Part shown: piece after piece, positions 10,017-64,000 of the stretch | How positions within the stretch are numbered: the first letter of the stretch is position 1 | Layout: each line of letters begins with the position of its first letter | Assembly: GCA_948144175.1 (NCBI GenBank) | Contig: CANXME010001998.1 | Span: 124,001-188,000, forward strand | Direction of reading: 5' to 3' | DNA length: 64,000 nucleotides | DNA from: Closterium sp. NIES-65 | Taxonomy: Eukaryota > Streptophyta > Zygnematophyceae > Desmidiales > Closteriaceae | Translations under genes and position numbers: made by a program | The notes under the pieces: model-generated | Told to the model about the DNA's origin: nothing | What the model saw: the letters and a program-made list of their open reading frames with translations, nothing else | Database searches by the model: none

Positions 10017-13000
10017 ATGGACGACAATGGCGAGGATTGCGTGTACTTCGGGCGCGCGTTGGAGCGCGAGGAGGGCGCGGGGGGCCGCAAGCTGCACCTG
10101 GCGGTGGCGGAGGGGCGCGCGAAGCAGGCGGTGCCGCCGTGGCAGCAGGAGGCGCGCGACGATGAGGGCAGGCGGCGGTTTCACGGCGCGTTCACGGGGG
10201 GCTTTTCCGCGGGGTACTTCAACAGCGTGGGGTCCAAGGAAGGTACGAGGCACCTGCCATAGGCTTGGAGCCCAAAACCGGTGAGAGGAAGCAAAAGGAG
10301 GGGGTGCAGGGAAGGTTATTCCACCCCTTGCCGCCATGCGAGCGTGCGCCTTTCGCGCGCTGGGACTCTCTATCGGATTCTCGCGCCAGTAGGCGCCGAT
10401 GCGGCTGTTCCCTCGCCTGCTGTCCCCCTTGCTGCCGCTGTCCTGCTCGTCTCGCTGCTTCCTCAGTGGTCCGCTCGTCGGCACGAGGGGCGAGGTGACG
10501 CAACGCCCGAGGGGGCGACGGCAGCATCACTCATCCCACTGCTCTCCCCTTCCACCCCCGAACCCCCTCTCTTCATCCCAACCCCCCGCGTTGATCTGCC
10601 CGCCAACCCCTCACCATCCAACGCAGGGTGGCAGCCAGCATCGTTCCGCTCGTCGCGCTCGCAGCGCGCGGAGGTGCAGCCGCAGCGCGTGGAGGCGCTC
10701 ATGGACGCCGACGAGCGCCACGACGCGCAGCGCGGCGCCGTGGCGGCCCAAAGCGCGTTCGACACGTTCGGCTTCACCGCTGCTGAGCGCGCCCGCCAGC
10801 TCGCCCCCGCCGCGGACCGGCGCCCCTCCGTGATCCCCGGAGGGGCCGTGGCAGAGCTGCTGGCGCCCGCTGCTGACTCCATCGGTGCGGCAAGGGGGGA
10901 AGGGAGGGGGGAGGCAGGGGGAGGGAGGGGCTGCGCCAGAGGAGGCAGGGGGAAGGGACAGCTGGATTGGATGGGTGGGGTGGCTTGTTGCCATTGGACT
11001 GGCTGCTGACTGCTGGGAGTGCAATGTGGAAACGTTATCCCTTCCCTGTCTGCCTGTGCACTCCACTTGTACCACGTCCCCCAGCCAACCTGTGCGTCTG
11101 TCCTCTGCTCTTCACGTCTCAACCCATTGCCTCAGTGCCCCATGCACTTGCATACCTCCTCCCCCCCCACTTTCCTTCCACCTCTCCCACTTCCCGCCCC
11201 TCTCCAACCCCCCTCCTTAATCCAACACGCTTCACATTCCCCCCTCCACCAACCTTCCCCGCTCCTCCCGTCCCCCTTCCCCAACCACCCAAGCCAGGCA
11301 AGGCGCTGCTGCGCAGGATGGGGTGGAGAGAGGGCAGGGGGCTGGGGCCGGACGAGGTGGCAGCTTCCAGGAAGGTGCATCGCGAGGGCAGGCGGGCAAT
11401 GCTGGCGCTGGCAGCGGGAGGAAGAGGGCGCGGGGAGGGGGGAGGAGACGATGATGGGGAGGCAGAGGGGGACGAGGACGATGAGGAAGGGGACGCATGG
11501 GGGGGTCGAGAGGAGATTGTGGGGAAGGGCAGGGGGGCAAGGGGTGGCAAGGACGGGGGGGCGTTGGCGGCAGCAGCGGCAGCAGAGGCGGCGGTGGCGG
11601 CGCAGCTGAGGGCGCCCAAGCGGGACACCCGGGGTGTGGGCTTCGATGCTTTCCAGGGCGCTGAGGATGTGCGAGGTCAGGCGTGCAGAGGGGTGGTGAG
11701 GGCGTGCAGAGGGGTGGTGAGGGCGTGCAGAGGGGTGGTGAGGCGTGCAGAGGGGTGGTGAGGCGTGCAGAGGGGTGGTGAGGCGTGCAGAGTGGTGGTG
11801 ACTGGCATACTTGCAATGACTGCCATATGTGGAATGTCCCCTTGGTAATACTGTCTGCCATGCGTGCAAGGACCACTGAAGCTCTTCTTCCTCCCCGTTG
11901 CGTGTCACTCTCATTGCTCACTACAACTCCCTCATCCCGCCTTCCCGCCTTCCCCCTCCCTGCCTCGCCCGCCTCTCTGTTCTCTGGGGAGTGGGAGCAG
12001 AGCACAGGCAAAGGACGGCAGGGGGGGCGAGGGAGGGAGGGGAGAGGGGGGGAGAGAGGGGCCTGGGTGGGCGGTGCAGGGCGGGTGGTGGCAGGCAGTC
12101 ACTGTTTGCGGCGGGCAGTGGGCGGGTGGCGGGGGGGTTTGGCATCGGGGCTCTGGAGGAGGCTGGGGCTGAGGATGAGGATATCTACGACTTCGGTGAG
12201 ATGCTGTGCGGTGGAGTTCGGTGGTGGTGGGTGAGGAGCGAGAGTGTGTTGTTGTGCAAAGAAAAGGTTGACTGCATGTGGTGGCTCGTTACCATGGTGG
12301 CACGTTACCATGGTGGCACGTTACCATGGTGGCACGTTACCATGTAACTTCCTTGCTTTCCTCCTTCACTGCGCCCTTTTCTTCATGCGCACTGCGCTCA
12401 CCCCCTTGCCCTCTCCCCCCGTACGCCCTCCCCCCCCGTGCGCCCTCCCCCCCGTGCGCCCTCTCCCCCGTACGCCCTCCCCCCCCGTGCGCCCTCCCCC
12501 CCGTGCGCCCTCTCCCCCCGTGCGCCCTCTCCCCCCGTGCGCCATCCAGAGATACCGGCGGGCGAGCTGCACCTAGTGGCGAGCGACGAGGACGAGGAGG
12601 GGGAGGGGCGAGGCGTGCATGCTGGCGGGGGCTTCATGGCCGCAGGCAGGCGCGGGCAGCAGGGGGGGCAGCAGGGGGCGCAGGGAGGGGCGCAGCAGGG
12701 CATGGCGTGGATGGGAGGGGTGGGCCGTGGGAGCAGCTCGGCTGTGCTGCGGGGCTTCTGTGAGGGGCGCGTGGCGCTGGAGGAATGCAAATGGTACTGC
12801 TGCCTGCCCCCCCCTTGCCTCACCCACACTCACTGCAGCCCAATGTGTGTGCTGTTGCTTCTGTTGCCTCTGCCACATGCCTTCCTGCCCACCACGAGCC
12901 TTGCTCCCTGCCCACCACGAGCCTTGCTCCCTGCCCACCGCACTGCTTCTTTCCTTAGCTGCAAGTCCGCGTTCACTTCCACCCACACTGCTTCACTGTC

Positions 13001-16000
13001 AACCAGCCACGCCTTTTCACACACATGCTGCTCTCCTACCTCCCACCCTCCCTCCCACCCTCCCTCCCACCCACCCTCCCACCCTCCCTCCCACCCCCCC
13101 CACCCACCCACCCTCCAGGTACCCGCCCCCCCACGTGCCCTCCTCCTTCACCCCCCACCACGTCTTCCCCTCCTCCCCACCCCCCTCCGCCATGTCAGCG
13201 CCCTCCACACTCGCCCCGCCGCCAGCCCCTCCCCCCGCAGACGCGGCGGTGCGGGCGGCGGTGGAGGGCGTGGCGGCCATGGTGGCGCGCTGTGGGGCGC
13301 ACGTGGAGGCGCTGCTGCTGTCTCGGGCAGGGGGAGGGGTGGGGGAAGGGGCGCAGGAAGGCATGGTGCAGGGCGCAAGCGCGAGGGAGGGAGGGGGAGG
13401 AGAGGGCAGTGCGCGGCTGGCGTTCCTGGTGGGCGGGGAGGGCAGTGCGTACTACCGGCGGCGCGTGTGGGAGCTGGCGGAGAGGCAGAGGGCCGCCCAG
13501 GGCAGGGCAGCAGCGGGCAAGGCAGTGGGGAGCAGTGGGGGGGAGCGCCTGGGGCCTGATGTGCGGGGCGCGCTGCTGGGCGAGCAGCCCCTGCCTTCCT
13601 CCCAGCCTGCCCCTGCTCCACGTCTATCAGCGCACCCCACACCCACCTCAACTGCTTTTCCTGCTGCTGCAGCTTCTGCCTTTACTTCTGCCACATCTCC
13701 TGCTGCTCCCCCTGCCCCCACCGTGCCGGCCTTCCAGCAGCACGGGGCGGCGGCTGAGCTGGCAGCGATGATGGCGGCGCGCTTCCACAGCAGCGGGCAT
13801 GAGGATCGGGCGGGCAAGGGCGGCATGAGCAGTGAGAAGGCGGCGCTGCCTGCTGCACCCGGGGCAGGCACTGCGCTGGCAGGGGCGGCAGCAGTGGTGG
13901 TGGCTCGGCGGAGGGAGGAGGCGTGGAGGCCGCTGCCTCTGCTGTGCAAGCGCTTCAACCTGCCCGACCCGTACGCGGGCAAGGTGAGATGGCCGTGCCA
14001 CCCTGTGCGCTTAGTTGGGCATCTCATATGTTTGCATAGTACATGTAACCTCATTGAAAGTTTGTATGCTTAGTATCATGTGAAAATACGTAGTGCTTAC
14101 GGGCTGACCGGGAAACAGAGAGGAAAAAAAGGCTGCGACACTGATGTTGCAGAATCCTTCCAACTAAGCCTGTGAGGCAGCCCACAGACAGGTGACGTTG
14201 GAAGCCGTGTGTTGTCGTCTGGTGGCAACCAGTTCCTTCCTTGATGCGCGCACTGGTCGGCCAGCACGCCTCTGCTTGCCTGCCACCAGATTTCCCCGCT
14301 GCTCCCTGCCCCTTCCCACACGTCCACTCCCCTTCTTCCTCCCCCCGTGTATTCTGCCCGGCTGGTCCCACTGCCATGCCTGCCGCCCAAGTGGTTCACT
14401 CTGCTTGCACGCTGCACCTCTGCGCCGCACACCTGTGCGATTCTCTGCAGTCAACCCGGTCACAGCACATCGATCCACTTGTTCACCTTTTCACACGGCT
14501 TTCTTCTCTCTCCTCTCTCTTCTCCTTTTCCGTGGTCCCTCCACAACAGGCCCCTCCCCCCCCTCTCCACCGTCCCTCTCAGCTCGACACCCTCACCTCC
14601 TTCCCCCAAACCCTCCCCTCCACCACGCCCGCCCCCACTGCTGCCCCCACTGCTGCCCCCTCGCCTCTCCTCTCCCTCCCTGCGCCTCCTCCTGCTGCGC
14701 CTGCCATGCCTCCTGGGCGTGATGGGTGGATGGAAGGACACGAGGAGGGACACGTGAGGGGAGCGATCGGGGGAGGGAAGGAGGACACAGGACGGGGGGG
14801 AGAGGAAAGTGCGGGAGTGTGGGAGGGGGAGGGGGAGGGGCAGGCAGCAGCGGAGGCGGTGAAGAACCGCCCCATGGACCTCTTCAAGGTGCCCCCCGCC
14901 TGCTCTCCCATGATCCCATCCCCTGCTCTTGCCGTTTTCTCTTTCTCTTTTATCGTCACTCTTGGTAGTCGTGAAATTTTTACATTTGTGTTCCGTTAAA
15001 CACTCACGTCACCTGCTTCTGTTTCCCTGTCTCCTTACTGCCCTCTGCTGCGAGTTTGTGACTCCAACTCCACCTGTCCCGCCACCCTGCACGCTCCCCT
15101 TCGCTCCAGGCAATCTTTTCGGATGATGAAGACAGCGACGATGATGCTCGTGCCACATCCGCAGCGCCAGGTGGCATTGATGACGTGGCAGCGGCAGAAG
15201 CTGCCACGCGGGCTCTTGCCCGGCTGGAGGCAGGTGACTTCCTGGAGGGGCTGGGCGAGGAGCTGGGCTTGCAGGTGGACCCGGGGGAGGTGCGACACGG
15301 GGCAGGGGGCGAGGGCAGGCGAGAGGAGAGGGAGGGCAGCAAGGGTGCGAAGCGGGAGAGTAAAGCGGGAAAGGGGAGGGCAGGAAAGGAGCAGGAGGGT
15401 GGTGTGTGGGGCCAAGGGGGTTATGGCGCTGGCATGGCAGGCAGTGCGGAGGGTGCAGTGGAAGCAGGGCGGGCAGAACGGGCCAGAGAAGGAGTTGAGA
15501 ACGTGGCAGGTGGAAGCGGGGCGAGTGAGGCAGCTGTGGGGGAGGAGCGGCAGAGTGATCAGGGAGGCAGTGGAGGTGGTATGGCTGATGCACATGGACG
15601 CACGAGAGGTGGTGCCATGGGGGAGGGAAGGTGCGCACTTGCTGCTGCCGCTGCTGTCGCTGCTGTCAAGAAGAAGAAGCGTGTGCTGACGTCATCGTCG
15701 TCGTCATCAGCATCGTCGGGGTCTGACTCGGATAGCGCAGGCTCTTTGTCTGGTAGAGGGGAGGGGAGGAGGAGGAGGAAGGAGGGGGTGAAGAAAAGGA
15801 GCAATAAACGGTCACGAGAGATTGATGGGGGGAAGAAGCGACGGAAGAGGACGAAGAGACGAGACAGCGGGAGTACAGGAAGTGAAGAATCAGATCATGC
15901 AGCGAGGAGGAAGAAGCACAAGAAGAAGGCATCACGGAGAAAGCACCACAGGGGAAGGCATGAGAGCAGCAGTGAGAGCGATGGGAGCAGCAGTGAGGGT

Positions 16001-16096
16001 GACAACTGTGGGAGTGACAGCAGCAGCGAGAGGAGACACACCAAGAGCAGACGGCGGCATGGTGATAAGGGGGGGCACAAGAGGCGGAACAAGTGA
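10017..16096 (+). CDS. GPATCH1/TOUGH-like G-patch and SURP protein
   Basis: An apparently intact host gene of eight exons: 10017-10242, 10627-10884, 11298-11695, 12099-12195, 12550-12793, 13119-13983, 14550-14888 and 15110-16096, about 1137 residues. All introns are GT-AG and phases agree. The protein starts [16 protein letters not shown] and has the DUF1604-type block [16 protein letters not shown] (about residues 55-70), then a G-patch segment [17 protein letters not shown] (about 162), an FDAFQGAED block, [25 protein letters not shown], a SURP/SWAP module (about 448-530, ending [12 protein letters not shown]), [16 protein letters not shown], the family signature [15 protein letters not shown] (about 802-816), [13 protein letters not shown], and a Lys/Arg/Ser tail. 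In plants TOUGH binds RNA and aids pri-miRNA processing; human GPATCH1 is linked to the spliceosome. ATG 10017 is the first ATG and matches the family start. The exon 3 donor is uncertain (11675 or repeat copies from 11695); only the latter kept frame with 12099. At about 1137 aa it is longer than usual through low-complexity inserts. Confidence 0.9.
11676..11797 (+). repeat. 20/21-bp minisatellite of splice-donor units at GPATCH1 intron 3
   Basis: Six units with starts at 11676, 11696, 11717, 11738, 11758 and 11778. From the second on, each begins GTGAGG and is preceded by G, a good U1-type donor (G|GTGAGG); the first reads GTCAGG. A further GTGACT follows at 11798. The array sits exactly at the exon 3/intron 3 boundary. 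Confidence 0.92.
12290..12345 (+). repeat. 16-bp tandem repeat in GPATCH1 intron 4
   Basis: Nearly four perfect copies of CGTTACCATGGTGGCA. Each holds the palindrome CCATGG. It lies within intron 4 and does not touch a splice site. Confidence 0.93.
12411..12549 (+). repeat. 17-19-bp pyrimidine-rich array ending at the intron 4 acceptor
   Basis: About eight units of the type CCCCGTGCGCCCTCTCC. The last unit reads GTGCGCCATCCAG and supplies the 3' splice site of intron 4 at 12548-12549. Confidence 0.9.
13039..13118 (+). repeat. CCCTCCCA-type array ending at the intron 5 acceptor
   Basis: Simple repeats of CCCTCCCACC form an 80-base polypyrimidine tract that runs into the acceptor CCTCCAG|G at 13118/13119. 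Confidence 0.88.
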
Positions 16097-16372
16097 CGTG
16101 ATGGGTGAATCGAATGTTTTGTGACGATGTTTCAGAAGCTATGTGGTATATATGGTGATGAAGTTTTGCTGGTGGGAGTTGTCAGGATTGTCAATGGGAC
16201 ATGCCATATATTGAAGCGCGCGGCCCAAGTTACGAGTCAAGTTTTTTAAACTTTAATGTCGAGGGCTGTGCTTGAGCGTGTTGAACAAGATTTTTAAACT
16301 TTAATACCATAATCCCCCATATAGTAGACCCGGCGAACAGGGCTTCAGATTCGTTTTGGGCCACCCTTAGTA
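16097..16372 (+). other. 3' flank of the GPATCH1-like gene
   Basis: Likely 3' untranslated and termination region, AT-richer than the gene. A TTTTTAAACTTTAAT motif appears twice (about 16241-16258 and 16290-16305). No polyadenylation site could be fixed. Confidence 0.4.
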
Positions 16373-16827
16373 ATCAGGGTTCTAGGTATAGTCAACCCTG
16401 ATGCGTAGGGTAAAAATTTTGTTTCCCTGACAAATGCAGGGTAAAAAAACAGTTAGTCTGTTTGGGCAGGGTTTTTTTAAAACATTTTTGGGAGTGACAG
16501 TTCTCAAGAACTTGAATTCAATGGCTAGTAATTCAGCTGGTTCAATTGCGCATTTAATCTGTAATGTCGCAAGTTCAAATCTCGCTAATTGTATCGTTTT
16601 GCACGGACCTGTATAGTGTTTCGTCTCGCTACGGAGCACTCAGTACCAGTATAGTTTGGATTGTACACTGTACAGTCAGAGTAATGTGTTCCTTATGCTG
16701 TTTTTCAAAGGGTATTGAAAAACTTACACTTTCTGGCCTAGGGTTAAAAATCCACTACCATGCCTGTGAAAGGGTAACTGAAAAAAAGCGGCCGCCAGTC
16801 AGTGCAAGAAGGGTATTTTACCCTGAT
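16373..16827. mobile_element. possible MITE with 8-bp inverted ends
   Basis: ATCAGGGT at 16373-16380 mirrors ACCCTGAT at 16820-16827, and GGGTAAAA/TTTTACCC words recur inside. No protein is encoded. Eight bases is a weak terminal repeat and no clear target duplication was found, so this is tentative. Confidence 0.3.
16517..16595 (+). pseudogene. degenerate tRNA-like sequence
   Basis: An A-box-like AATTCAGCTGGTTCAATTG and, about 35 bases later, a T-arm-like GCAAGTTCAAATCTCGC with one mismatch in its stem. The D arm, anticodon loop and acceptor stem do not form properly, so no isotype is called. It may be a tRNA-derived SINE head or an organelle-like tRNA relic. Confidence 0.25.
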
Positions 16828-17339
16828 AACGAGAGGCCTGCCGGCGAAATAAAGCACCTGTGTTTGTTATATCCGGGGTGTGGCAGCACCCCGTTTTCAG
16901 ATTGGATATAGCACCCCACCCCACCCTCCCCCACCATTTTTAAGTGCCCCTGCAATTGTTTCAGCTGGCGAAACTTCAGTAAACATCTGCACAAGCATAC
17001 GGTACAAATTACACTACAAGCATACTCCTCACTTCAACATGCATCATTTCGTCGCACGTGCCATGCATGATGCATCCCAGCACATGCCCTGCATCCCAGC
17101 AGTATTATTTCTCCACATCAATCCACGGCCGTAAAACCGTGTTCAACTACTCATTGCTCCACCCGCATTCGCGCACACACAACCGGGTAACCTGCCTCTC
17201 ATCCACTATTAACCTGCCTCTCACCATCCCGGCTGCACCTTGTTAAAGTCCCAGATCCAGCTCCTTCAGCTGCGGCATGTCACATTTCTGCAGCTTGCTC
17301 GTCGCCGGCCGCAGCTTGCTCGTCGCCGGTGTGCCTGCG
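16828..17339. other. intergenic, nothing recognised
   Basis: Mixed-composition sequence with a CATGCATGATGCATCC-like simple stretch near 17060 and two copies of CAGCTTGCTCGTCGCCGG near 17291-17330. No gene, RNA or repeat family is recognised. Confidence 0.4.
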
Positions 17340-17662
17340 AGCGCGCTCACCTGCGCGCCCGCTCCCGTGCCCTTTATAGCTATCCTCACTCTAGCCTAAC
17401 ACACAAACATGTTTGGACACACCCCCATAGGCTAAGTGATGGACAGCAAGAGTCACGAATGGTCACAAGACCAGTTAAGAGAGGAAACACAACCAAGCTC
17501 AGGGTGGGTCTCAATTACAACATAGTACAAGCACAACCAAGCGGCCACAAAGCCAGTTCACATGTAATGTTATAGTAGCAATAACAATACGGTGATCACA
17601 ATCTAGCAAGAGTGCATTTGTAGGTATAGATATATATAACAGAGTGTAACAAGTAAGGCAAC
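17340..17662 (-). mobile_element. copia fragment H, 3' untranslated part and LTR start
   Basis: On the minus strand, a copia 3' leader-like region (about 17640 down to 17430) matches the equivalent region of B and D (GGTCACAAGACCAGT, CTCAGGGTGG, GCCAGTTCACATG on the plus strand). It is followed by a purine tract CCTATGGGGGTG and an LTR start TGTCCAAACATG whose first base is 17419. The LTR's far end is not resolved. No coding domain is attached. Confidence 0.65.
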
Positions 17663-17811
17663 TCACTTCTCCTGATTTTTTTCCAAGTCCTTCAAATCAT
17701 TAAGGCTATGAGATCCTTTCACTGCACGTGTTGCAGAACCTGACTTGTGCGGTCCACCCCTATGAGGTGCGGATGCAATGTGAGCATCTGCCTGTTCGAA
17801 ACGGTTGCCTT
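17663..17811 (-). other. orphan reading-frame end, unrecognised
   Basis: A 49-codon open frame on the minus strand enters from the edge of copia G at 17811 and ends in a stop at 17663-17665. The translation ends SHSLNDLKDLEKNQEK and has no ATG. Its composition is mixed, unlike the low-complexity frames nearby. It could be the last exon of a host gene carried next to element H, or an unfamiliar copia tail. No family is recognised. Confidence 0.3.
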
Positions 17812-36069: not shown

Positions 36070-39000
36070 CAGCTACGTGCAGCAGCGCTGATGATCACAA
36101 GGCGCAAGTGCCTTGGTGAAGACATCAACAGTGTTGGCCTCAGAGGCCACGTATGCAAGTCGCAACTGTCCACGCTGCTGTAGCTCATGAGCAAGAAAGT
36201 AGCGGAGAGCAATGTGCTTTGTCTTGTGCTCCAGTCGCTCCTCTCGACACAAGGCCAGCATGGCCTTGTTGTCTACGTACAGGACTGGAGGAGAACGAGG
36301 CGGCTCTCCAAGGTCGGTCAGCAGGTACGTGAGCCAGCGAAGCTCCTAGGGCCGCCATAGCCCCGGCGTAGATCTCAGCCTCACAACTGGAGCCGAGAAC
36401 AAAAGACGAGCGGGTAGCCCGCCACGAAACAGAGCCGGAACCAAGGATGAAGGTCTAACCCTGTGATGACCGCTGCGTAGCCTGGTCGTCAGCCCAAGAA
36501 GCGTCCGCGTGCCCAGTGAGAACCACTGGACTGCGCCCTCCAAGCACTAGCCCCATGCCCGACGTACTGCACAAGTAGCGCAACACCCTCTTCGCTGCAG
36601 CCATGTGCTCTGGTCAGTGTCTCCCAGGAGCAACATAGCGTGCGAGAATGCTAAGAGGGTATGCAAGGTCAGGTCGTGTGCAGGTCATCAGGTACATGAG
36701 GCAGCCAACAAGCTCAGGATACGGGCCACTCGACTCTACGGACTCATCCGAAGGCAGAGCTGAGAGCGAGTGGCGAGTAGACAGAGGAGTGGCCTGAGGC
36801 GAGGAGTACGTGAAGCCGAAGCGCTGAAGGACCTGCTGCACCATGTGTGACTGAGTCAGGGTAATGGTGCGGCGTGCTCTGTCCCGGGTGATCTGCAAGC
36901 CAAGGTAGCTGCGTAAGTTCACCCAGTCTTCTGCAGCTCCTACTTCACGTAGGCGAGTCCAGCAGTGTCAGCTGTGGCAAAGACCAAGTCTTCGACGTAC
37001 ACGAGGATGTAGAACGGCGGCAGAGAGGTGTCGGTGCGCAGAAACTAGCGACGGGTCTGCCGTGGAAGGAGCAAACCCAAGTGCCGCCAGCGTAGTCCTC
37101 AGTGTGTCGTGCCACTCACGCGGCGCCTGGCGGAGACCGTAGACTGGACGCCGGAGACTCCACTGGGTACCAAGAGGGAAAGACCCAGTGAAGCCAGGAG
37201 GGCGACGCAGCCAGATCTCCTCGTGCAGGCTGCCCTGCAAGAAAGCAGTGCTGAAGTCGAGAGAGTGCAGCTCGTAGTCGCGGTGAGCAGCAACGTGCAG
37301 TAATACCCGAAGAGTGGTCATCTTCGGGGTGGGGGAGAAGGTCTGAAAGTAGTCAACTCCCTGCCGCTGACTGAAGCCACGAGCCACGTAACGCGCCTTG
37401 AAGACAGGCGGAGAACCCGGCGGCCGCTTCACCCTGAAGATCCACATGCCACTGACGATGTTCGCCCCAGGAGGGGGGACAGCGTCAACGTAGGTGCCTG
37501 TGGACTTCCAGGAAGCCATCTCTGCATCCATAGGTGCCTGCCACTGAGAGGAGTAGGGACCCTCTATCGCCTCCGCGTAAGAGCGCGGAGTCGGGATGTC
37601 TAGTGCATCCGGGTCTCCCTCAGGGGTGAGCAGTACAGACGCGAGATGAGGTGAAGCGGTGGCCAGACACTGGAACTCCTCCTGCCTGTCCTCTAGGACG
37701 TCCGTGCCAAGGGCACACTCACCCCCGACGGACGGAGGACTGGCACATTCAGACTCAGCGACAAGACTAGCAGCGTAGTCTAGACGACAGCGCGCAGCTA
37801 AGTCAACGAGCTCAGTAACAAGGGCGGACGCAGCAGAAGACTCGAAAGAAGGGTCAGTGACGGCAGTAGCAAGGAGACGCGTGACAGTAGGACTGGCAGC
37901 ACGAAGAGAGTCCGACTCCGGGTTGGCAAGAGCAAGAAGAGAGGAAGCAAGAGGAGAAGGCAAAGGGGCACGCAAAGGAGCAGTGGACGGACGCAGAGAC
38001 ATCCGGTGCGTGCCAGGGACAGGAGGAGGACGCAGACGCGAACCGCGACCACTAGTGCGCGCAGCACGAACAGGCGACGCAGGACGTGACGCAGGCTCAC
38101 GACGCTCGGTAAGACCTCCAGTCGGACCAGTGTAAGGAGAAGGAGCAGGCAAAGGGGAGGCACGCTGGAGCTGTGACTGTGCATGGACAGGCTGTGGACC
38201 CTCTAAGGGAGGAGGAGGAGGACCAGTAGAAGGTGTAAGACCAAGAACCTGCTGTAGGAGTGGAACGAAGTACGGTCGGGGTAGCGTGGCGACGCCAGAA
38301 ACAGCAAGGACAGCACCAGTACCCCCGCAGGAGTACCCGCTCCAGCAGCACCTCCTGTAGCTCCAGAACCCCCAGCAGCCCCTCCAGCAGCCCCAGAACC
38401 TCCAGCAGCACCAGGAGCACTGCCAGTCTGACCGCCAGCGGTAGTCTCAGCGCCAACACGCTGAGCAGGCACCAGCTCCAGGAGAACCCGTAGGCCTAGC
38501 AGCTCCAGTACTCCCACTATGAGCACCTCCGAGACGCGCGGCAGCAGCACCCTCAGCAGCCGAATAACCTCCAGCACCAGCAGCACGCCTCGAGCGCCGG
38601 GCAAACCACTCACGCAGCTCCTGTGGGGAGAGTGGCTCTCAGCGAGACGAAGCACTCGGACAACCTCCAAGCGAAGAACCTCCAGTCTCAGAACTCCCAG
38701 GCTCAGCACCCCCACGCGCAGCACCTCCAGTCTCAGCACCCCCAGGCTCAGCACCCCCAGGCTCAGCACCCCCAGGCTCATCACCCCCAGGCCCAGCACC
38801 CCCAGGCTCAGCACCCTCAGACTCCGCACCCCCAAGCTCCGCACTCCCAGGCTCAGCACCCCCAGGCACAGCACCCCCAGTCACAGCACCCCTAGGCTCA
38901 GCACCCACAGCAGCACCAGAGTCACCAGTGACCTCGACAGGCTCGACCGCGTCTACCTGGGACACACCTGAAGGGGCAGGACCCTGTGGGGGGAGGGGGT

Positions 39001-44174: not shown

Positions 44175-47100
44175 ACCTCCCCTCGTTCTCTACGAACTCG
44201 GTGAGCACTGCTGTCCTCCAGGACGCGTAGGTTGACACCTTCACCCCTGGACGGCAGCGTGTGGCGATCTGTACGTGCTCCCGGAACGGTTGCCACCTAA
44301 CCACATTCACCCGTCGGGCTGGGTCGAGTCTCTACACACTGACTATTGCGCCTCCTTAGGTAGTTGCGTCTGCGTCTGCGTCAGGTCAGCTAGCTGCCCC
44401 CTGCTCGTGTCGCACCCTGTCGCACCTGACGCTCCTTTGGCACCACCGTCTTGGTCACCCCGCTGTGGCATGCCTCCGTGGCATGCACTCCCGTCTTCTT
44501 GTCTCTGGTCTTCCGAGGTCTCTGCCTCCCCTCCCACCATTACCTGCCCCTCCCTGCCTTCTATGTATCGAGGGGCGGCAGCGTGCCGCTCCACACTCCT
44601 CCTTGTTCCCCCTGACAGAGGCACCCCTGTAGACTCTCCACCTGGACGTGTGGGGCCCAGCCCGCATCCATGGACAGGGACACGAGCGGTACTTTCTGCT
44701 GGTTGTCGACGACTACTCGTGTTACACCACGATCTTCCCCTTGCACCGCAAGGGGAGGTCCCTGATGTTCTAATCCCTTGGATCCGCGCTGTTCGTCTCC
44801 AGCTCCGCGAGCGGTTCGAGACCGACCTTCAAGTCCTGCGTCTGCACTCTGACAGAGGTGGTGAGTATTCCTCCGACCTCTTGCGGGCCTTTTGTCGTGC
44901 GGAGGGCATTCGCCAGATGTTCACGCTCCCGGCCTCTCCGCAGGAGAATGGGGTTGCTAAGCGCCGCATTGCCTTAGTCATGAAGGTCGCTCGTACCTCC
45001 ATGATCCATGCGGCTGCCCCCCATTTTCTGTGGCCGTTGGCTGTCCAGTACACTGCCCATCAGCTCAACCTCTGGCCCCGTGTCTCCTTGCCGGAGACCT
45101 CGCCCACACTGCGTCGGACGGGGTAGGTTGGCAATGCGTCGGTGTTCCGGGTCTGGGGATGTCGAGCCTTTGTCCGCGATACGTTTGCGGACAAGCTCTC
45201 GTCCCGCGTCGTTTCCCTGTGTCTTCCTTGGCTTTGTCCCTGACGCGCCTGGCTGGAAGTTTTACCACCCCACCTCGCGCCGTGTCCTGCCCTCTCAGGA
45301 CGTCACGTTTGACGAGTCGGTCCCCTTTTACCATCTCTTCCCCTATCGCACTGCCCCTCTCCCTCCTCCGCCGCTCTTCCTAGCACCAGGTCCTCCTCCG
45401 GTAGACCCCCTCCCCCCTCAAGGTCCTGCTCCCTCAGGTGTGTCCCAGGTAGACCCTGTCGAGCTTGTCGAGGTAGCTGTCGATTCTAGTGCTGCTAGAG
45501 GTGGTGCGTCTAGGGGTGCTGAGCCTGCGGGGTTGGGGCCTCGGGGTGCTGAGCTTGAGCGTGCGGAGCCTGGGGGTGTTGAGCCTGGGGGTGCTGAGTG
45601 AGAGGGTGCGGAGCCTGGGGTGCTGAGCCTGACCGTACGGAGCCTGGAGGTGCTGAGCCTGGGGGTGCTGAGCCCGAGTGTACTAAGCCTGGAGGCCCTT
45701 TGGGTGTCTTGTCATGGCCGAAGTCTCTCTCCACTGCAGCTCCGCGAGTGGTTTGCTCGGAGCTGGAGCCTCTGGAGTGGTGCTGCTGGAGCTGAAGGCG
45801 TTGGAGGTGCTAGAGCCGCTAGTTCCGGAGGTGCTCGTACTGGAGGTACTGGAGCTGCTGGGGCTGGAGGTACTACTGGAGCTGCTGGAGGTGCTGGTGC
45901 TGTTGGAACTGGAGCTACTGGAGATGCTTCTGGAGCTGGAGCTGCTGGAGGTGCTGGAGCTACTAGAGCTGGAGGTGCTGCTAGAGCTGGAGCTGCAGGA
46001 GGTGATGGAGCTGGAGTTGCTGGAGCTGGAGGTGCTTCTGGAGCTGGAGCTGGAGTTGCTGCTGGAGCTGGAGCTGGTGGAGGTACTGGTGCTGTCAGTG
46101 CTGGTGCTGTTGGTGCTGAGCAGCCGTGACCATACTCTGTTCCACAACTTAAGTAGGTTCTTGGTCTCTCGCCTTCTGCTGACCTTGCTCCTCCCTTCCT
46201 GTGTCCACCGCCAGACCAGTCCGAGCCACAGCTACTGCCAGCCTCTCCGCTGCCTGCTCCTTCTCCTTACACTAAGCAGCCCGGAGGTCTTACTAAGCGT
46301 CGTGAGACTGAGTCTCGTCCTGCGTCGCCTGTTCGCGCTAGTTGCACTGGTCGTCGTGTTCCGCGTCCGCGTCCTCCTCCAGTCCTCGGCACGAACCAGA
46401 TGGCACTTCGTCCTTCCTCTATTCCACTGCGTGTCCCTCTGCCGTCTCCTCCTGCGTCCTCCCTTGCTAACGGTCCGGACCCGGAGTCTGACTCTCTTCG
46501 TGCTGCTAGTCGTACTGTCACGCGTCTCCTGGCCACTATGGTCACTGACCCTTCCTTTGAGTCCACGGCTGCGTCTGCCTTAGTCGCCGAGCTTAGTCGA
46601 CTTTGGTGCTCGCTGTCGTCTAGACTACGCCGCTAGCCTTGTTGCTGAGTCTAAGTCTGTCTGTCCTCCGTCCGTCGGGGGTGAGTGTGCTCTTCGCACG
46701 GACGTCCTTGAGGATAGGCAGGAGGACTTTGAGTGCTTTGCAGCTGATGTACCTCATCTCGTGTCCTATGCTGATTGCACCTGAGGGAGACCCAGATGCA
46801 CCAGACATCCTGGCCCCGCGCTCTTACGCAGAGGCGATAGAGGGTCCCTACTCCTCTCAGTGGCAGACAGCCATGGATGCAAAGATGGCATCCTGGAAGT
46901 CCACGAGCGCTTACGTCGACGAGGTTCCCCCACCTGGGGCGAACATCGTCGATGACATGTGGATTTTCAGGGTAAAGCGGCCGCCGGGTTCTCCACCTGT
47001 CTTCAAGGCTCGTTACGTTGCACTAGGCTTTGATCAGCGACAGGGAGTTGACTTCTTCCAGACCTTCTCCCCGACCCCGAAGATGACCACTCTTCGGGTT

Positions 47101-48816: not shown

Positions 48817-48821
48817 GTATC

Positions 48822-53439: not shown

Positions 53440-56400
53440 GAGTACAGAAGCGCTGATGATCACAAGGCGCAAGTGCCTTGCTGAAGATATCAGCAGTGTT
53501 GGCCTCAGAGGCCACGTACGCAAGACGCAACTGACCACGCTGCTGTAGCTCACGAGCAAGGAAGTAGCGGAGAGCAATATGCTTCGTTTTGTGCTCCAGT
53601 CTCTGCTATCGACACAAGTCCAGCATGGCCTTGTTGTCTACGTACAGCACTGGAGGAGAACGAGGAGGCTCTCCGAGGTCAGTCAGCAGGTAGGTGAGCC
53701 AGCGAAGCTCCTGTGCAGCCATGGCCCCGGCGTAGATCTCAGCCTCACAACTGGAGCCGAGAACAGAAGACGAGCGGGTAGCCCGCCACGGAACCAAGGC
53801 TGAAGGTGTAACCCTGTGACGACCGCTGCGTAGTCTGGTCGTCAGCCCAAGAAGCGTCTGCGTGCCCAGTGAGGACCACTGGACTATGCCCTCCAAGCAC
53901 AAGCCCCATGCCCGACGTACTGCACAAGTAGCGCCACACCCTCTTCGCTGCAGCCATGTGCTCCGGTCTGTGTCTCCCAGGAGCAACATAGCGTGCGAGA
54001 ATGCTAAGAGGGTATACAAGGTGAGGTCTTGTGCAGGTCATCAGGTACATGAGGTAGCCAACAAGCTCTGGGTACGGGCCACTCGACTCTACGGACTCAT
54101 CCGAAGGCAGAGCTGAGAGCGAGTGGCGAGTAGGCAGAGGAGTGGCCTGAGGCGAGGAGTACGTGAAGCCGAAGCGCTGAAGGACCTGCTGCACCATGTG
54201 TGACTGAGTCAGGGTAATGGTGCGGCGTGCTCTGTCCCGGGTGATCTGCAAGCCAAGGTTGTTGCGCAGTTCACCCAGGTCTGTGCACGTGTGTCTCTTT
54301 TGCAGCTCGGACTTCATGTGGGCGAGTCCAGCAGTGTCAGCAGTGGCAAAGATCAAGTCGTCGACGTACACGAGGATGTAGAACGGCGGCAAAGAAGTGT
54401 CGGTGCGCAGAAACAGCGACGGGTTGGCAGTAGAGGGAGCAAACCCAAGAGCCGCAAGTGTAGTCCTCAGTGTGTCATGCCACTCACGCGGTGCCTAGCG
54501 GAGACCGTAGACTGGCCGCCGGAGGCTCCACTGGGTGCCAGGAGGAAAAGACCCAGCGAAGCCAGGTGGGCGACGCAGCCAGATCTCGTTGTACAGGCTG
54601 CCCTGCAAGAAAGCATTGTTGAAGTCAAGAGAGTGAAGCTCGTAGTCGCGGTGAGCAGCTATGTGCAGCAGTACCCGAAGAGTGGTCATCTTCGGGGTGG
54701 GAGAGAAGGTCTAAAATTAGTCAACTCCCTGCCGCTGTCTGAAGCCTCGAGCCACGTAACGCGCCTTGAAGACAGGCGGAGAACCCGGCGGCCGCTTCCC
54801 CCTGAAAATCCACATGCCACTGACGATGTTCGCCGTAGGCGGGGGAACCTCGTCAACGTAGGTGCCTGTGGACTTCCAGGAAGCCATCTCTGCATCCATA
54901 GCTGCCTGCCACTGAGAGGAGTAGGGACCCTCTATCGCCTCCGCGTAAGAGCACGGAGTCGGGATGTCAAGTGCATCCGGGTCTCCCTCAGGGGTAAGCA
55001 GTACGGACACGAGATGAGGTGAAGCAGCAGCCAAACACTGGAACTCCTCCTGCCTGTCCTCAAGGACGTCTGTGCCAAGGGCACACTCACCCCCGACGGA
55101 CCGAGGACACACAGACTCAGACTCAGCGACAAGACTAGCAGCGTAGTCTAGACGACAGTGAGCAGCAAAGTCGACAAGCTCTACAACTAGGGCAGACGCA
55201 GGAGTGGACTCAAAGGAAGGGTCAGTGACGACAGTAGCAAGGAGACGCGTGACAGAAGGACTGGCAGCAAGTAGAGTGTCCGACTCCGGGTCTGAAGAGC
55301 AGGAAGAGAGGACTCAGGAGGAGAAGGCAAAGGAGCAGTGGACGGATGCAGAGACATCTGGTGCATGCCAGGGACAGGAGGAGGGACGCTGACGCGAACC
55401 ACGACCACTAGAGCGAGCAGTATGGACAGGCGACGCAGGGCGAGACGCAGGCTCACGACGCTCAGCAAGACCTCCAGTAGGACCAGTGTAAGGAGAAGGA
55501 GCAGGCAGTGAGGAGGCCGGCTGGAACTGTAACTGTGACGGGACAGGCTGTGGACACTCTAAGGGAGGAGGAGGACCAGTAGAAGGCGGGAGACCAAGAA
55601 CTTGCTGAAGGAGCGAAACGAAGTACCGCCGAGGCTGCGCGGCGACTCCAGACACAGCAGGGACAGCACAAGGACCCCCAGCGGCAGCACCAGCGCCAGC
55701 AGCACCTCCAGCTCCAATACCTCCAGCAGCACCAGTAGCACCCCCAACAGGACCGCCTCCAGGACCGACAGCAGTAGCCTTAGCGCCAACACCCTCAGCA
55801 GCTCCAGCTCCAGTCGTACCCGCAGGCCCCGCTGCTCCAATACCCCCAATACGAGCACCTCCGGGACCCGCGGCACCAGCACCCTCAGCAGCCGAAGAAC
55901 CTCCAGCTCCAGCAGCACGCCTCCAGCGCCGGGCAAACCACTCACGCAGCTCCTGTGGAGAGAGTGGCTCCCGACGAGACGAATCACGCGGATAACCTGC
56001 AGGCTCAGTATCGCCAGACGCGACACGAGCAGGCCCAGCTCCCTCAGGCTCCGCACCCCGAGGCTCAGCACCTCCAGGCGTAGCACCCCCAGGCTCAGCA
56101 CCCCCACTCGTAGCACCCCTAGGCTCAGCACCTCCAGGCTCAGCACCCCCAGTAGTAGCACCCCCAGGCTCAGCACCCCCAGACTCAGCACCCCCAGTAG
56201 TGGCACCCTCAGACTCAGCACCCCCAGGCGTAGCACCCACACGCTCAGCACCCCCAGAGTCAGCACCCCCATGCTCAGCACCCTCAGCAGCACCAGAGTC
56301 ACCAGCAACCTCAGCAGGCTCAACTGCGTCTACGTGGGACACACCTGAAGGGGCAGGACCCTGAGGGGGGAGGGGGTCTACCCGGGGGGGACCTGGCACA

Positions 56401-59353: not shown

Positions 59354-59409
59354 GACAGCAGTAGACTAGCAGCGCGAACAGTAGGGTAAGGGCAGTGCAG
59401 GGATAGAAG

Positions 59410-60130
59410 CGCTGCTCTTACCGGACAGGGCGGCTCGGGAGGCTCGGCGGCTCGGCAGCAACTGCGGCTCGGCGACTCGGCGGCTCAGGCGGCTCGGCGG
59501 CTCGGGCGGCTCAGGCGACTTGGCGGCTCGGGCGGCTCGGCGACTCGGCGGCTCGGGCGGCTCGGCGGTCGGCTGCTGGGCGGCTCGGTTGCTCGGCTGC
59601 TCGGCTGCTGGGCGGCTCGGCGGCTCGGCGGCTCGGCGGCTCGGCGGCTCGGCTGCTCGGCTGCTGGGCGGCTCGGCGGCTGGTGTGGCTGGTGACGACC
59701 GCGGCAGCAGTCGCAGGAGCTGTGGCTACTGCTGCTGCAGAGACGGGGGCGGCTGCTGCCTCAGGGACGGCGGTGGCCGGCCGCTAGGGGCCGCGAAGGG
59801 CGGCGGAGAGGCCGTGAAGGGGGCCACGAGGGGCCGCCGAGGGCGGCGACGGGGCGTGAGGAGGCCGCGGAAGGCGGCTCGAGGGGCCGCGAGGGGGCCG
59901 TAAGGGGCCGACGGGCGGCGGGAGGGGCCGAAGGGGCCGCGGGAGGGCCCGTAAGGGTAGCGTGAGGGGCCGTAAGGGGCCGTAAGGGGCGGCTCGCTGG
60001 GCCGTAAGGGCGGCGTTAGGAGCCGTAAGGGCGGCACGAGGGGCCGTAAGGGCGGCGCGACGGGCGCGACGGGCCGTAAGGGCGGCGCGACGGGCCGTAA
60101 GGGCGGCGCTAGGGAGCCGTGAGAGGGCCG
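59410..60130 (-). repeat. leader repeats of copia D
   Basis: 9-bp GGCGGCTCG units (about 59420-59690) followed by GGGCCGTAAGGG-type units (about 59880-60130). Untranslated leader. Confidence 0.85.
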
Positions 60131-60297
60131 CTAAGGGCGACGCGACGGGGCCGTGAGGGGCCTAGCGAGGGCGCGACGGTAGGGAGAGCACACGGGGCGC
60201 GACTCGGGCCGGAGTGAAGCGCGCTCTGGGCAGGAAAAAAAAAATCGTGGTGGTGGGCCCTAGGAATCGTTCCCACTAGGGAAACTGCTCGATTCCA

Positions 60298-60422
60298 TGA
60301 GAAGAAACGAAGAATGGGAATGACTAAGGGAAAGTTGGGTACAAGTACAAACCCTAGAAAACTGTACCCCATATGTGCTACCCCACTATAGCCTACAGCA
60401 GCTATGTCATATATGTCTGACA
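60298..60422 (-). repeat. 5' LTR of copia D
   Basis: 125 bp; partner of 53062-53186. Confidence 0.93.
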
Positions 60423-61136
60423 CCTCAGCCACGACGCAACAGTTGCCATTCTACCTCAACTACGGACAGAACCCAACAGTGCCCATGACCCCGAATTCCG
60501 ACAACCCATTACCACGCGCGCAATAGTTCGCATAAATTTTACAACCAGCACGGACCCGAGCAGCAGACGCCATTAAAAAATCAATCATCGCTAAGCGTAA
60601 CGCTGATCGCCACTGTCGCCCAATCACGTACGAGCCCAAGGACCTCGTTCTGATCTTCACTCAAAACCTCCGCGTGCCCATCACTCTGAAGCTCAGCCCA
60701 CGATATTGCAGGCCATTTCGCATCAGCCACATGATAATACCTGTCACCGCCCACCTCCTCCTCCCTGCTAATTGGTACATCAGCCCGTCACTTCACATCA
60801 GCTTACTCCGCCCATGCGTCCCATCCACCAGTCAACTGCCCTGCAACCGCCCTGTCAGTATGATACGACCGCCCACACGACCACGGAGCCGATCATCACA
60901 TCCGAGAAAATCCCGAGCCACCGAGTTCATGACCCACGTGGAGCTCGCAGGATTGAGTTCCTAATTCGCTGGAAAGACCGCATGCCTACCGAGGACAACT
61001 GGGTGCCCTTGGACAGAATTGAAAGCCAACCTGTTCTCACCGAGTACCTCTGCAGCCGCAATTTCCAGGATGTACACGCACTCTCGTAAGGGGAGTCTCT
61101 TTTTGGGGGGGGGGGGGTGGGGAGGGAGTGGGGTAG

Positions 61137-61434
61137 TGTAAGGAAAATTCCTTTCCCTTACTTTGCACCCCTGCTTACCGCATACACGACCGTTCCCACC
61201 AACAGTTCCCAACAGTGCACCGTTACCACTCGCGACACTCACCTCGACCACTGTTCCCGCCACGGTTCACGGCGCGACCCAACCTCGGCGCTAGGCCCGT
61301 AGCGTACCCCAATTTCTCGCATTACCGTTACCACGCTAGCTTCGCTACATAATATTCGCTCATGCCTTCGCTCAATGTACTGTTTTGCTCCGATAGTGCA
61401 ATTCTCGCTCGCTCGCTCAATTGCACTCGCAACA
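61137..61434 (+). repeat. 3' LTR of chromovirus E
   Basis: 298 bp, preceded by a long G-rich tract (61106-61136). Partner of 49040-49392. Confidence 0.82.
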
Positions 61435-61751
61435 AATACCTTTTCCCTCCCCTTCGTAAGGAAAACCACTTTCTCAAGCAATATCGGATCGGATGGACAA
61501 ATATGTCTTATATCTGGCGACGACGGTATGCATATCCATGGCAGGTAAGGGGGCAACCAGTGGCAGTAGTGCTGGTGCATGGGGAATAAATCAATTACCT
61601 GTACATACGGTAGTAGTACTACACCTAGCAGTGAGATGGACAGACATGCGTTGTGCAACAAGAATCTTGAATGAAGTGTGTAGATGTCCCGCAGCTTCAC
61701 CATCGCCTCTGGCCTGCAATGCTTCATTTCGTGGGTGCAACTGCAGCACCT
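61435..61751 (-). other. 3' flank of the RING-H2 gene
   Basis: Sequence between chromovirus E's right end and the RING stop codon; presumably the gene's 3' untranslated region. No other feature seen. Confidence 0.5.
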
Positions 61752-61960
61752 TCACTGCTCCGCGCCCCGTGTGTCTCGCTTGCAGATGGGGCACACTGCT
61801 CGGCGCCTCAACCACTCATCAATGCACTGCCAAGAGCAGGGAGGGGCAGCAGCCAATGTAGGCAGAAAGGGTGGAGGAGGAAAGAACAGCGATGACACTG
61901 AGAGAACCGAGAAAATCTATATGCTAACTCGCGGAGCTCAGCCCACAAGAAGAAATGGAA

Positions 61961-62011
<51 letters not shown>

Positions 62012-64000
62012 TTCAGCGCTCATGCTGTGATTATGAATGTGGTGATAAGCATTTCAATGACCCGTGTGCTTCCATCTCATGGAATTACTAACATTTGACT
62101 ATGACATGCACAAATCGTGGAAGCCAGTCAATCCAAGTTCACTTGTTTATCCAAGTTCACTTGTTTCAAGCCAAGTGCAATTCACATTTCGGTGGAAGGG
62201 TTGGTCGACTCACCCTTTTGACTCACCCTTTTGACTCACCCTTTTGACTCGCGCTTTTGACTCATGCTTTTTACTCACCCTTTTGACTCATGCTTTTGAC
62301 TCACGCTTTTGGCTCACGCTTTTGACTCATGCTTCTTGTTACAAAAAATGACTTTGGTTGACTCACATCGCGATGGAAGGCATGGGAGCAGGGTAGGCGG
62401 CGGATGACTTCAGGCGGGGAGGGCACCTCAATGCAGATGGCACACGGGTCCAGATCGCTGTCATGTGCCTGGCAGGGGGGAGATGGGCGATGGAGGTATG
62501 GCAGGGGGGAGATGGGCGATGGAGGTATGGCAGGGGGGAGATGGGCGATGGAGGTACGGCAGGGGGGAGATGGGCGATGGAGGTATGGCAGGGGGGAGAT
62601 GGGCGATGGAGGTATGGCAGGGGGGAGATGGGCGATGGAGGTATGGCAGGGGGGAAGAGACGGAGTTGTCTTTGACAATGCTGCTACCCAGGTCGCTATG
62701 GTATGGCTGGAATGGGGAAAACGACCACATGCATGGCAAGGGAAGTGTGCACTGCTGATGGGACATGCATCCCCCGACCCCACACCCCACACCCCACACC
62801 CCAGACCCCAGACCCCAGACCAGGCTGCACCAGGCGGAGAGGGGACAGTCACTTCCTTGCCGATGCACTCAGAGCAGTGAGCAGTGCGTGCAGCAAGCGT
62901 GTGCATTTCTGTGCTTAAGAGCAGGGCGAACAGGCTGTTGCAATGCGGAGCAACAGGTGCAGGAGAGCAGAGAGGGTACGGACCGTGACAAGGGCGGTGG
63001 GCAGGCTGTTGATCTCATCGGGCGTGGCGCCGGGGCGCACGACGGGCGCTGAGATGTCGTCCAGCGCCAGCAGCATCTCGTAGTCCGACCTGCACCTCGT
63101 GTGGCGTGGGGAGACGAGCAGGTACGAGAACCACGGGCAGGGAATGTGTGGGGTTAGGTGGGGGAACGGAATGCGGAGAAGGCAGGAAGGAGAGAGAGGG
63201 AGCTGTAACCGCACAATGATTGGCAGAGTGGTTGGATTGCAATGAGTGGTTGGATTGCAATGAGTGGTTGGATTGCAATGAGTGGTTGGATTGCAATGAG
63301 TGGTTTGACCACACAGCGTGGTTGAAGGCGCAAATTCATGGCTACTTAGGAACTGAAAAACTAGGCGCTCAGCCAGAGCAAAGCACAGCAGAGCAGCGCA
63401 GGGAGAAGGGAAGGGGGATGGGGCGGGGACACACTCATTGAAGGGGAGGGGGGGCGGGACGGGGACACACTCATTGAAGGGGAGGGGGGGCGGGGCGGGG
63501 ACACACTCATTGAAGGCAGGGGGGGCGGGGTGGGGCGGGGACACACTCATTGAAGGGCAGGGGGGGCGGGGCGGGGCGGGGACACACTCATTGAAGGGGA
63601 GGGGGCGGGGACACACTCATTGAAGGGCAGGGGGGGCGGGGCGGGGCGGGGACACACTCATTGAAGGGGAGGGGGGGCGGGGCGGGGACACACTCATTGA
63701 AGGGGAGGGGGGGCGGGGCGGGGACACACTCATTGAAGGGGAGGGGGGGCGGGGCGGGGACACACTCATTGAAGGGGAGGGGGGGCGGGGCGGGGACACA
63801 CTCATTGAAGGGGAGGGGGGGCGGGGCGGGGACACACTCATTGAAGTCGCGGTCGATGGCGGCGAGGCGGAAGGCGAGAGGGAAGTTGCGCGCGAGGGGG
63901 GGGGCGGGGGAAGGGGGCGATGCGGTGGAAGGCGGCGTCCACCCCCCCCATGCCCGCCTCCAACGCCTGCCACACCGCCAGCCGCTGATGGGGGGGGAGG
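61752..64000 (-). CDS. RING-H2 E3 ubiquitin ligase (5' part outside window)
   Basis: Four exons on the minus strand: 63838 upward to the window edge, 62984-63089, 62368 or 62367-62468, and 61752-61826. Introns are GT-AG and phases fit. The protein has FPLAFRLAAIDRDFNE, SDYEMLLALDD, EINSLPTALVT and a complete RING-H2: C-x2-C (CAIC) in the third visible exon, C-x-H-x2-H split across the next junction (LPCSHAFHRD then CIDEWL), and C-x2-C (CPIC). It ends KRDTRGAEQ. Such proteins bind an E2 enzyme and transfer ubiquitin to target proteins. The IDRDF..DYEMLLALD..INSLP arrangement before the RING resembles a plant RING family, but I cannot name the orthologue or target. In the first visible exon the coherent frame (LAVWQALEAGMGGVDAAFHRIAPFP) changes at a C-run near 63895-63905, which may be a run-length error, a frameshift or an unseen intron. 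All three introns hold tandem arrays. Confidence 0.82.
61962..62007 (+). repeat. 46-nt poly(A) in RING intron 3
   Basis: Uninterrupted A-run on the plus strand (T-run in the sense of the gene). No retroposed body or target duplication recognised; may be simple-sequence expansion. Confidence 0.85.
62207..62336 (-). repeat. 13-bp array of GTGAGT units in RING intron 3
   Basis: About ten units of AAAAGGGTGAGTC on the minus strand, beginning about 25 bases past the real donor (GAT|GTGAGTCAACC at 62366). Most copies keep GTGAGT; others read ATGAGT or GCGAGT. Confidence 0.92.
62471..62663 (-). repeat. 29-bp array abutting the RING intron 2 acceptor
   Basis: Six full units and a partial one, spaced exactly 29 bp from 62471. 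On the minus strand each ends CCATCTCCCCCCTGCC; the copy next to the exon continues AG, forming the acceptor at 62469-62470, while the others continue AT. Confidence 0.93.
63226..63305. repeat. 18-bp tandem repeat in RING intron 1
   Basis: Four perfect copies of GAGTGGTTGGATTGCAAT and a partial fifth. Confidence 0.95.
63417..63845 (-). repeat. about 36-bp array repeating the exon-intron junction of RING intron 1
   Basis: Twelve copies of ACACACTCATTGAAG on the plus strand, at about 63428, 63466, 63501, 63541, 63582, 63611, 63652, 63688, 63724, 63760, 63796 and 63832, separated by G-rich spacers. In gene sense each unit is CTTCAATGA|GTGTGTCCCC, i.e. the last exon bases and the donor of the exon ending at 63838. 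Confidence 0.94.

Follow-up and report, generated by a model that had tools for sequence, protein, structure and literature searches.

Long introns are usually attributed to transposons. A donor minisatellite of the IFI6 type reportedly forms a tandem array at the exon end of one gene, with a donor in each unit and several of these donors used in transcripts; potato is said to hold a case of intron gain by tandem genomic duplication, and a paired-nickase study reportedly induced the tandem duplication of local stretches, tens of base pairs (bp) long, in plant DNA, with no conserved palindromic filler. In the outline given in PMC3443670, intron gain by tandem genomic duplication takes place when exon sequence next to splice signals is duplicated and the extra copy is spliced out, and introners, as summarised in PMC9860276, are similar sequences that create introns in many genes. 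The account of the Closterium peracerosum-strigosum-littorale genomes in PMC10407611 gives an 876-megabase NIES-65 assembly with duplicated genes throughout and a mean intron of 485.4 bp. Here we describe tandem arrays at the splice sites of two genes, a TOUGH/GPATCH1-like gene (gene 1) and a RING gene (gene 2; together, the window genes), in a 64,000-nucleotide stretch of Closterium sp. NIES-65 (contig CANXME010001998.1, positions 124,001 to 188,000; hereafter the window), and, in long introns of other genes of the same assembly (874,075,685 bases in 2,400 contigs), copies of the introns' own exon ends.

Direct copies of the adjoining exon end, 78-100% identical to it, lie in 17 of the 45 long introns (at least 250 bp) in a survey set of 25 gene loci and 165 introns, and in 15 of these 17 the copy reaches the splice junction. 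With exon-only queries run against the adjoining introns, the 3' part of the upstream exon was found in 12 of the 45 and the 5' part of the downstream exon in 10; matches on the opposite strand numbered 0 and 2. Both of the latter lie in a window gene and look like chance matches of GC-rich sequence; they were retained in the counts. No copies of the exon's far end, away from the intron, were seen, except as part of copies of whole or near-whole short exons. Side and direction are equally plain at the level of single copies: 43 of 58 begin exactly at the junction and 48 within 6 nucleotides (nt) of it, while 10 lie 9-68 nt off. By-eye inspection of the far boundaries of the copies found no consistent shared sequence.

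The survey set was assembled by searching the assembly for loci and modelling them with a purpose-written spliced protein-to-DNA aligner, with reference proteins as queries. Four allelic loci had been removed from it (L019, L021, L033 and L042, alleles of L018, L020, L032 and L035, respectively). Before counting, two short introns of L035 were merged, the donor of RACK1 exon 3 was shifted to a GTGAGG site, and the third intron of L027 was excluded; the models of L041 and L036 each cover part of the gene. No stop codon interrupts the 27 spliced models, although the aligner itself penalises stops.

Of the 13 loci in which long introns are present, six carry copies (L030, 1 of 2 long introns; L031, 1 of 5; L032, 7 of 7; L035, 2 of 7; L036, 2 of 2; L041, 4 of 4), and within the 17 copy-bearing introns the distance from intron edge to farthest copy makes up 7,600 of 13,099 bases. 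Intron 1 of L032, a PP2A gene, can be read as three copies of the end of exon 1 followed by four copies of the start of exon 2. Tandem units that include exon sequence measure 112 and 141 bp in this gene, 119 bp (9.6 units, 54 exon bases) in L035, another PP2A gene, and 151 bp in L041, an IDH gene. Unit number changes even between alleles: L035 and L042 are 99.6% identical over one 2.66-kilobase alignment and hold 9.6 and 12.6 units. A GAPDH and an SAHH gene are also followed by partial copies of the last exon (beyond exon 8 in L018 and L019; C1935:270494-270721).

The copies decay neutrally and look like relics. Across eight families, each of three copies or more, private changes (those confined to a single copy) number 22, 22 and 26 at codon positions 1, 2 and 3, changes shared by all copies (master changes) number 2, 0 and 7, and 34 further sites are unassignable; eight of nine indels in copies shift the frame. 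The age of the copies showed no significant gradient with distance from the exon (Spearman 0.06, P 0.63; -0.24, P 0.10 without L035).

Where genes could be compared, the introns occupy positions common to related genes (actin 20, 76, 152 and 356; IDH 187, 222, 284 and 343), and one position can hold a short intron in one gene and a long intron in another. At actin position 356, L030 has an intron of 590 bp that holds a junction copy, against 76-106 bp in five genes; at IDH position 222, the intron of L041 is 1346 bp long and holds copies, against 121 bp for that of L040. Actin introns are 59-106 bp in six genes (again without the third intron of L027) and those of the IDH gene L040 mostly 88-213 bp. 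The intron at position 295 of L041 is missing from L040; positions could not be compared in this way for RACK1, and the PP2A genes L031 and L032 share few positions with other PP2A genes.

In the window itself the repeats are of shorter unit. An earlier note, made from the letters of the window, had counted three donor-side and three acceptor-side arrays among ten introns, and both Tandem Repeats Finder (TRF) and reading of the sequence confirm this count, with seven and three introns in the present models of the two genes. Its statement that the units differ and the position does not holds in part: each array has its own unit and the position recurs, but other arrays lie mid-intron, so that the position is not exclusive. 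The arrays and related features are as follows.

Positions 10577..10610, plus strand: single-unit match near the intron 1 acceptor of gene 1, from comparison with homologous copies.
Positions 11675..11801, plus strand: donor array, gene 1 intron 3 (TRF); 20-bp unit, G followed by GTGAGGCGTGCAGAGGGGT, 6.2 copies.
Positions 12279..12344, plus strand: mid-intron array, gene 1 intron 4, not anchored (TRF); 16-bp unit, 4.1 copies.
Positions 12408..12547, plus strand: acceptor array, gene 1 intron 4 (TRF); 17-bp C-rich unit, stopping 2 bp short of the exon.
Positions 12884..12939, plus strand: mid-intron array, gene 1 intron 5, not anchored (TRF); 23-bp unit, 2.4 copies.
Positions 13035..13116, plus strand: acceptor array, gene 1 intron 5 (TRF); 12-bp unit CCTCCCTCCCAC, 6.8 copies, stopping 2 bp short of the exon.
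Positions 62207..62334, minus strand: donor-side array, gene 2 intron 3 (TRF); 13-bp unit AAAAGCGTGAGTC, 9.8 copies.
Positions 62470..62655, minus strand: acceptor array, gene 2 intron 2 (TRF); 29-bp unit, 6.4 copies, 1 bp from the exon.
Positions 62777-62821: mid-intron array, not anchored (TRF).
Positions 63226..63305, minus strand: mid-intron array, gene 2 intron 1, not anchored (TRF); 18-bp unit, 4.4 copies.
Positions 63408..63846, minus strand: donor array, gene 2 intron 1 (TRF); 36-bp unit, 12.0 copies.

Two of the donor arrays include the exon end, with 1 and 9 bases. The array at 11675-11801 begins at the last exon base, and its copy at the exon end reads GTCAGG; the units at 63408-63846 hold 9 nt of exon end plus the donor (CTTCAATGA followed by GTGTGT). 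The array at 62207-62334 starts about 30 bp downstream of its donor (...CGCGAT, then GTGAGTC), with GTGAGTC or a near form in its units, and the units at 62470-62655 read CCAT (one CCGT), the true acceptor being CCAG. As in a plain minisatellite, unit number differs between alleles and between homologous copies, in the window arrays mostly by whole units. A genome search found four copies of the TOUGH-like gene, about 91-98% identical over the longer alignments, introns included. The intron 3 donor array has 3.2 units in two of the three other copies, the third being truncated at this point; the intron 4 acceptor array has 7.4 and 10.4 units in two others, the intron 5 acceptor array 3.8 in two others, and the mid-intron array at 12884-12939 has 3.4 and 8.4 in two others. 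Near the intron 1 acceptor the three other copies carry a 25-bp acceptor-side array of 9.3, 21.3 and 12.3 units, and the window copy is without the array (10577-10610). One TOUGH-like copy, L013 on the reverse strand, diverges from the window copy past the first ~1.5 kilobases, from about 4441, into other repeat-rich sequence.

The proposed excess of array edges at splice sites is borne out across the survey: of the 47 intronic arrays that TRF detects, 25 begin or end no more than 30 bp from a splice site (13 donor, 12 acceptor), compared with 10.2 expected under random placement in the same introns. The window genes alone give 6 of 10 against 2.1 (P 0.007), and the 23 other loci 19 of 37 against 8.1 (P 5e-6). 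All 47 arrays are confined to 12 of the 25 loci; none lies in L016-L029, where introns are mostly short. For these counts the first donor of the RING gene was placed 4 nt too early, the array overlapping the donor in either case, and RING intron 3 was left out because its acceptor was not located. A predicted bias of donor-side unit lengths towards multiples of three is absent, only 3 of 13 donor-side arrays having such a length. The short-unit arrays are real; elsewhere, the stronger signal is that of the diverged, long exon-end copies, which are only partly visible to a tandem-repeat finder. Arrays at multiple loci and exon-end copies together uphold the suggestion of a recurrent process in this genome rather than two chance cases.

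Both the arrays and the copies are probably the outcome of recurrent local tandem duplication and slippage, filtered by selection. Stretches of tens to about 115 bp would be copied head to tail, at times with a palindrome-carrying filler described below, and the copied units would then be multiplied or reduced via slippage or unequal exchange. Duplications confined to an exon would break the protein and be lost; those straddling a junction would be tolerated, because the exon-side donor or acceptor still joins the coding exons, and every inner copy would become intron. Since the starting introns would be short, most tolerated events would straddle a junction. An intron would lengthen from its edges towards its middle by gaining copies of the junctions that bound it, and these copies would then decay neutrally. 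We infer that the exon-side site is the one spliced; selection is the presumed filter, and slippage presumably drives the later amplification. The window's short-unit arrays would share this origin with the long copies at other loci, to which they are tied by analogy, because the window's eight long introns hold no copies. The earlier note had supposed that arrays are tolerated since any copy splices. This is doubtful: the long units of 119, 112 and 151 bp are not multiples of three (that of 141 bp is), and the use of an inner donor would therefore usually break the frame.

Several observations weigh against this explanation. The copies are unevenly spread: L032 and L041 contribute 7 and 4 of the 17 introns, whereas none was found in the long introns of the window genes (0 of 8; 0 of 6 and 0 of 2), in those of L034 (0 of 6) or in the single long introns of L016, L023, L038 and L040. 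It may also be that the window's short-unit arrays arose differently from the long copies at other loci. Short introns yielded 0 and 1 exon-end matches in 120, an absence that is partly trivial because there is little room in them. AG is kept in 12 of 17 acceptor copies, so that cryptic splicing should be a burden. The exon part of the copies measures 50-56 nt at 9 of 22 junctions, against 2.7 expected from a fitted gamma distribution that was chosen post hoc, with the data already seen; this clustering does not fit random breakpoints, which do not predict it. (The count takes the largest reach per junction, includes the donor side of L036 exon 3 and leaves out both L035 exon 9, which adjoins a short intron, and L032 exon 6, whose donor-side copy starts 68 nt off the junction.) Finally, some preference for junctions is possible: of the 20 duplication clusters that touch annotated introns or exons, 18 touch a junction compared with 14.1 under free placement (P 0.02), 17 having been so classed and L036 added, which was first classed as exon as its model ended.

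Those last two observations speak for a duplication aimed at splice junctions, for example by way of R-loops, of exon-end chromatin or of nicks linked to transcription or splicing: the exon part clusters near 53-54 nt, 43 copies begin exactly at the junction and 18 of the 20 genic clusters touch one. We regard such aiming as unlikely, given that free placement alone predicts 14.1 of the 20, that 38 further clusters lie outside annotated genes in 186 kilobases of the same sequences, and that both window genes have mid-intron arrays. Free placement was, moreover, computed in the present long introns, and shorter starting introns would give still more junction contacts. The 38 clusters outside genes indicate that the duplication process is general and not confined to junctions. 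The earlier claim that duplication starts at splice junctions therefore fares poorly, since duplicated stretches of 44-114 bp in short introns would mostly straddle junctions anyway and 18 against 14.1 is a weak excess; the results neither demonstrate nor require that splice sites are targeted. It is more doubtful still that anchoring reflects composition, with C-rich polypyrimidine tracts and G-rich donor flanks acting as low-complexity seeds. Several acceptor arrays are indeed of CCCTCC type, and introns shuffled in 40-bp blocks still gave a mean of 12.7 arrays, 6.2 of them near sites and mostly at acceptors (4.3), so that composition accounts for part of the excess. As the whole explanation it is refuted by the same shuffles, which in 20 repeats reached at most 9 near-site arrays against the 25 observed; nor can exon-end copies of tens of nucleotides stem from composition, and the unit number of acceptor arrays varies between homologous copies. 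It is hardly credible that selection maintains the copies as decoys or as functional alternatives to the true exon ends. GT is kept in 25 of the 26 donor copies that reach the junction, a retention biased by the requirement that alignments reach the junction and by nine identical L035 units; private changes are spread over the codon positions without bias, most indels are frameshifts, and most copies are exon ends that lack the exon's other splice site. A pooled count of mismatches by codon position (85, 54 and 168 in 59 copies) had suggested constraint on alternative exons, but it was misleading, because each change in the master exon is counted once per copy, and counting private changes only removed the signal.

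Between some copies sits an 18-bp palindrome, TTTTGAG-NNNN-CTCAAAA, whose core or a near form is found in L041, L035 and L032. With a gap of 0-6 the palindrome has 30,566 places in the assembly, compared with 90 for a control palindrome of equal composition and 31 for the reversed pattern; 30,327 of them have a gap of exactly 4, as befits a conserved, dispersed, high-copy core, and 46 of the 50 plus-strand centres listed are themselves perfectly palindromic (TCGA, ACGT, GCGC and AATT; counted by eye). The shorter core TTTGAG...CTCAAA occurs at nine places in the fetched DNA (seven once alleles are removed, representing six duplications). Each of the nine is flanked by direct copies that measure 44-114 bp and are 82-96% identical, rather than by target duplications of a fixed short length. 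Five of these six duplications have a filler of 25-65 bp between the copies; the sixth, with two palindromes, has one of 161 bp. Under a stricter rule, applied to 59 hairpins with arms of at least 8, a loop of up to 6 and alleles left out, both copies lie within 40 bp at four of five hairpins of TTTTGAG or TTTTGGG type and at 1 of 54 others. Other palindromes were accordingly dropped as marks of duplication. The palindrome or a near form is present in only 7 of 58 duplication clusters, so that it marks part of the duplications or fades with age; it may be a cause or a by-product of duplication.

The palindrome could, as a tentative alternative to general duplication, be itself the agent: a palindromic element of some 30,000 copies that is placed along with a duplication of its target, from tens of bp to about 115 bp long and perhaps produced by cuts set far apart on the two strands, the junction copies being target duplications and introns lengthening by repeats of the event. 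Its abundance over both controls, its position between direct copies at every fetched core place and the outcome of the 40-bp rule all speak for such a mobile element. Its scarcity among the duplication clusters speaks against it, as do the reduction of nine places to six duplications, one with its second copy more than 120 bp away, and the position of all nine places outside the window; no enzyme or full-length element turned up, although no search was aimed at either. If the mobile reading is true, palindrome-linked duplication would add a class of element and a route of intron growth that have both gone unreported.

Other palindromic and shared sequences were seen in passing. The palindrome also occurs in tandem series with steps of 37, 53 and 42 bp (C6:107990-108155, C6:131439-131668, C10:378176-378319). 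A second kind, around GGACGCATGCGTCC/TGCGTCCGGACGCA, lies at L012 1177-1204, in reverse at L012 7790-7832 and at L035 5559-5584, once in a tandem array, and a palindrome-like GTAAGGAAAA...TTCCTTAC, possibly an element end, lies at L029 2535-2558, at L034 9726-9749 and at about 61138-61162 of the window. When the fetched loci were compared, repeats common to the window or the TOUGH-like loci were found in L024, L026, L028, L029, L035 and, weakly, L030, and L032, L036 and L041 were without repeats common to either. L032 and L041 do contain the genome-wide palindrome; L036 has neither palindrome nor window-repeat link.

The two host genes are modelled as follows.

Positions 10018..16096, plus strand: gene 1, TOUGH/GPATCH1-like (DUF1604 plus G-patch), eight exons and seven introns, hand-curated model.
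Positions 62367..64000, minus strand: gene 2, RING-finger protein, lower end at about 62367, extending beyond the window.

The N-terminal exons of gene 1 match Pfam PF07713 (E 2e-33) as well as PF01585. Its boundaries were set by hand after spliced alignment, the intron 3 acceptor (~12000) and intron 6 (13988-14548) being less certain. Gene 2 matches zf-RING_11 at 29.6 bits (cut-off 27 bits); its exons, with boundaries placed by eye, are one ending at 63838, 63089-62984 and 62468-62367, and the last of its three introns is open-ended in the model. A run of 46 A lies near this gene at 61962-62007. Judged by eye from the list of open reading frames, the sequence between and around the host genes is largely retroelement-like. 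Some of these retroelement-like frames carry 15-bp minisatellites inside the coding region (3006-3253, 38678-38910, 45514-45691 and 56030-56287), with units such as CTGGGGGTGCTGAGC that read as GGAEP-type repeats; the same elements also have Gly-rich arrays, and copy number varies between elements.

On these results, some of the long introns are largely made up of decayed copies of the splice junctions that bound them. Growth by junction copies makes the lengthening of introns datable and testable, the resulting introns are natural arrays of competing splice sites, and the copies hint at an unusual kind of duplication that a conserved palindrome marks. Both this duplication and the part played in it by the palindrome look new. 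We saw no description of junction copies in passages of PMC10407611, whose main text has no word beginning with "palindrom"; in the open-access literature we found no account of introns built from junction copies, only of related single mechanisms, nor this palindrome in work on dispersed palindromes with duplication.

How, then, do these introns compare with the described systems? The window arrays at 11675-11801 and 63408-63846 resemble the IFI6 type in standing at an exon end with a donor motif in each unit. That type concerns one gene, whereas here several genes are involved, together with acceptor-side arrays and long copies with tens of exon nucleotides. The paired-nickase duplications are likewise local tandem copies of tens of bp; there they were induced, and here some come with a conserved palindromic filler. 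As in tandem-duplication intron gain, exon sequence beside splice signals is duplicated, but in that process as outlined in PMC3443670 a new intron arises within an exon, whereas here introns at shared positions grow; where genes could be compared, introns at new positions of that kind were not found. No intron family was shared between unrelated genes in an all-against-all blastn of the fetched loci, as introners would have it: the sole match of L032 is its allele L033, that of L041 is the related gene L040, and L036 has none. Introners in the description of PMC9860276 and the present copies are alike in that repetitive, possibly element-linked DNA shapes the introns of many genes; unlike introners, the copies here match the exon ends of their own intron.

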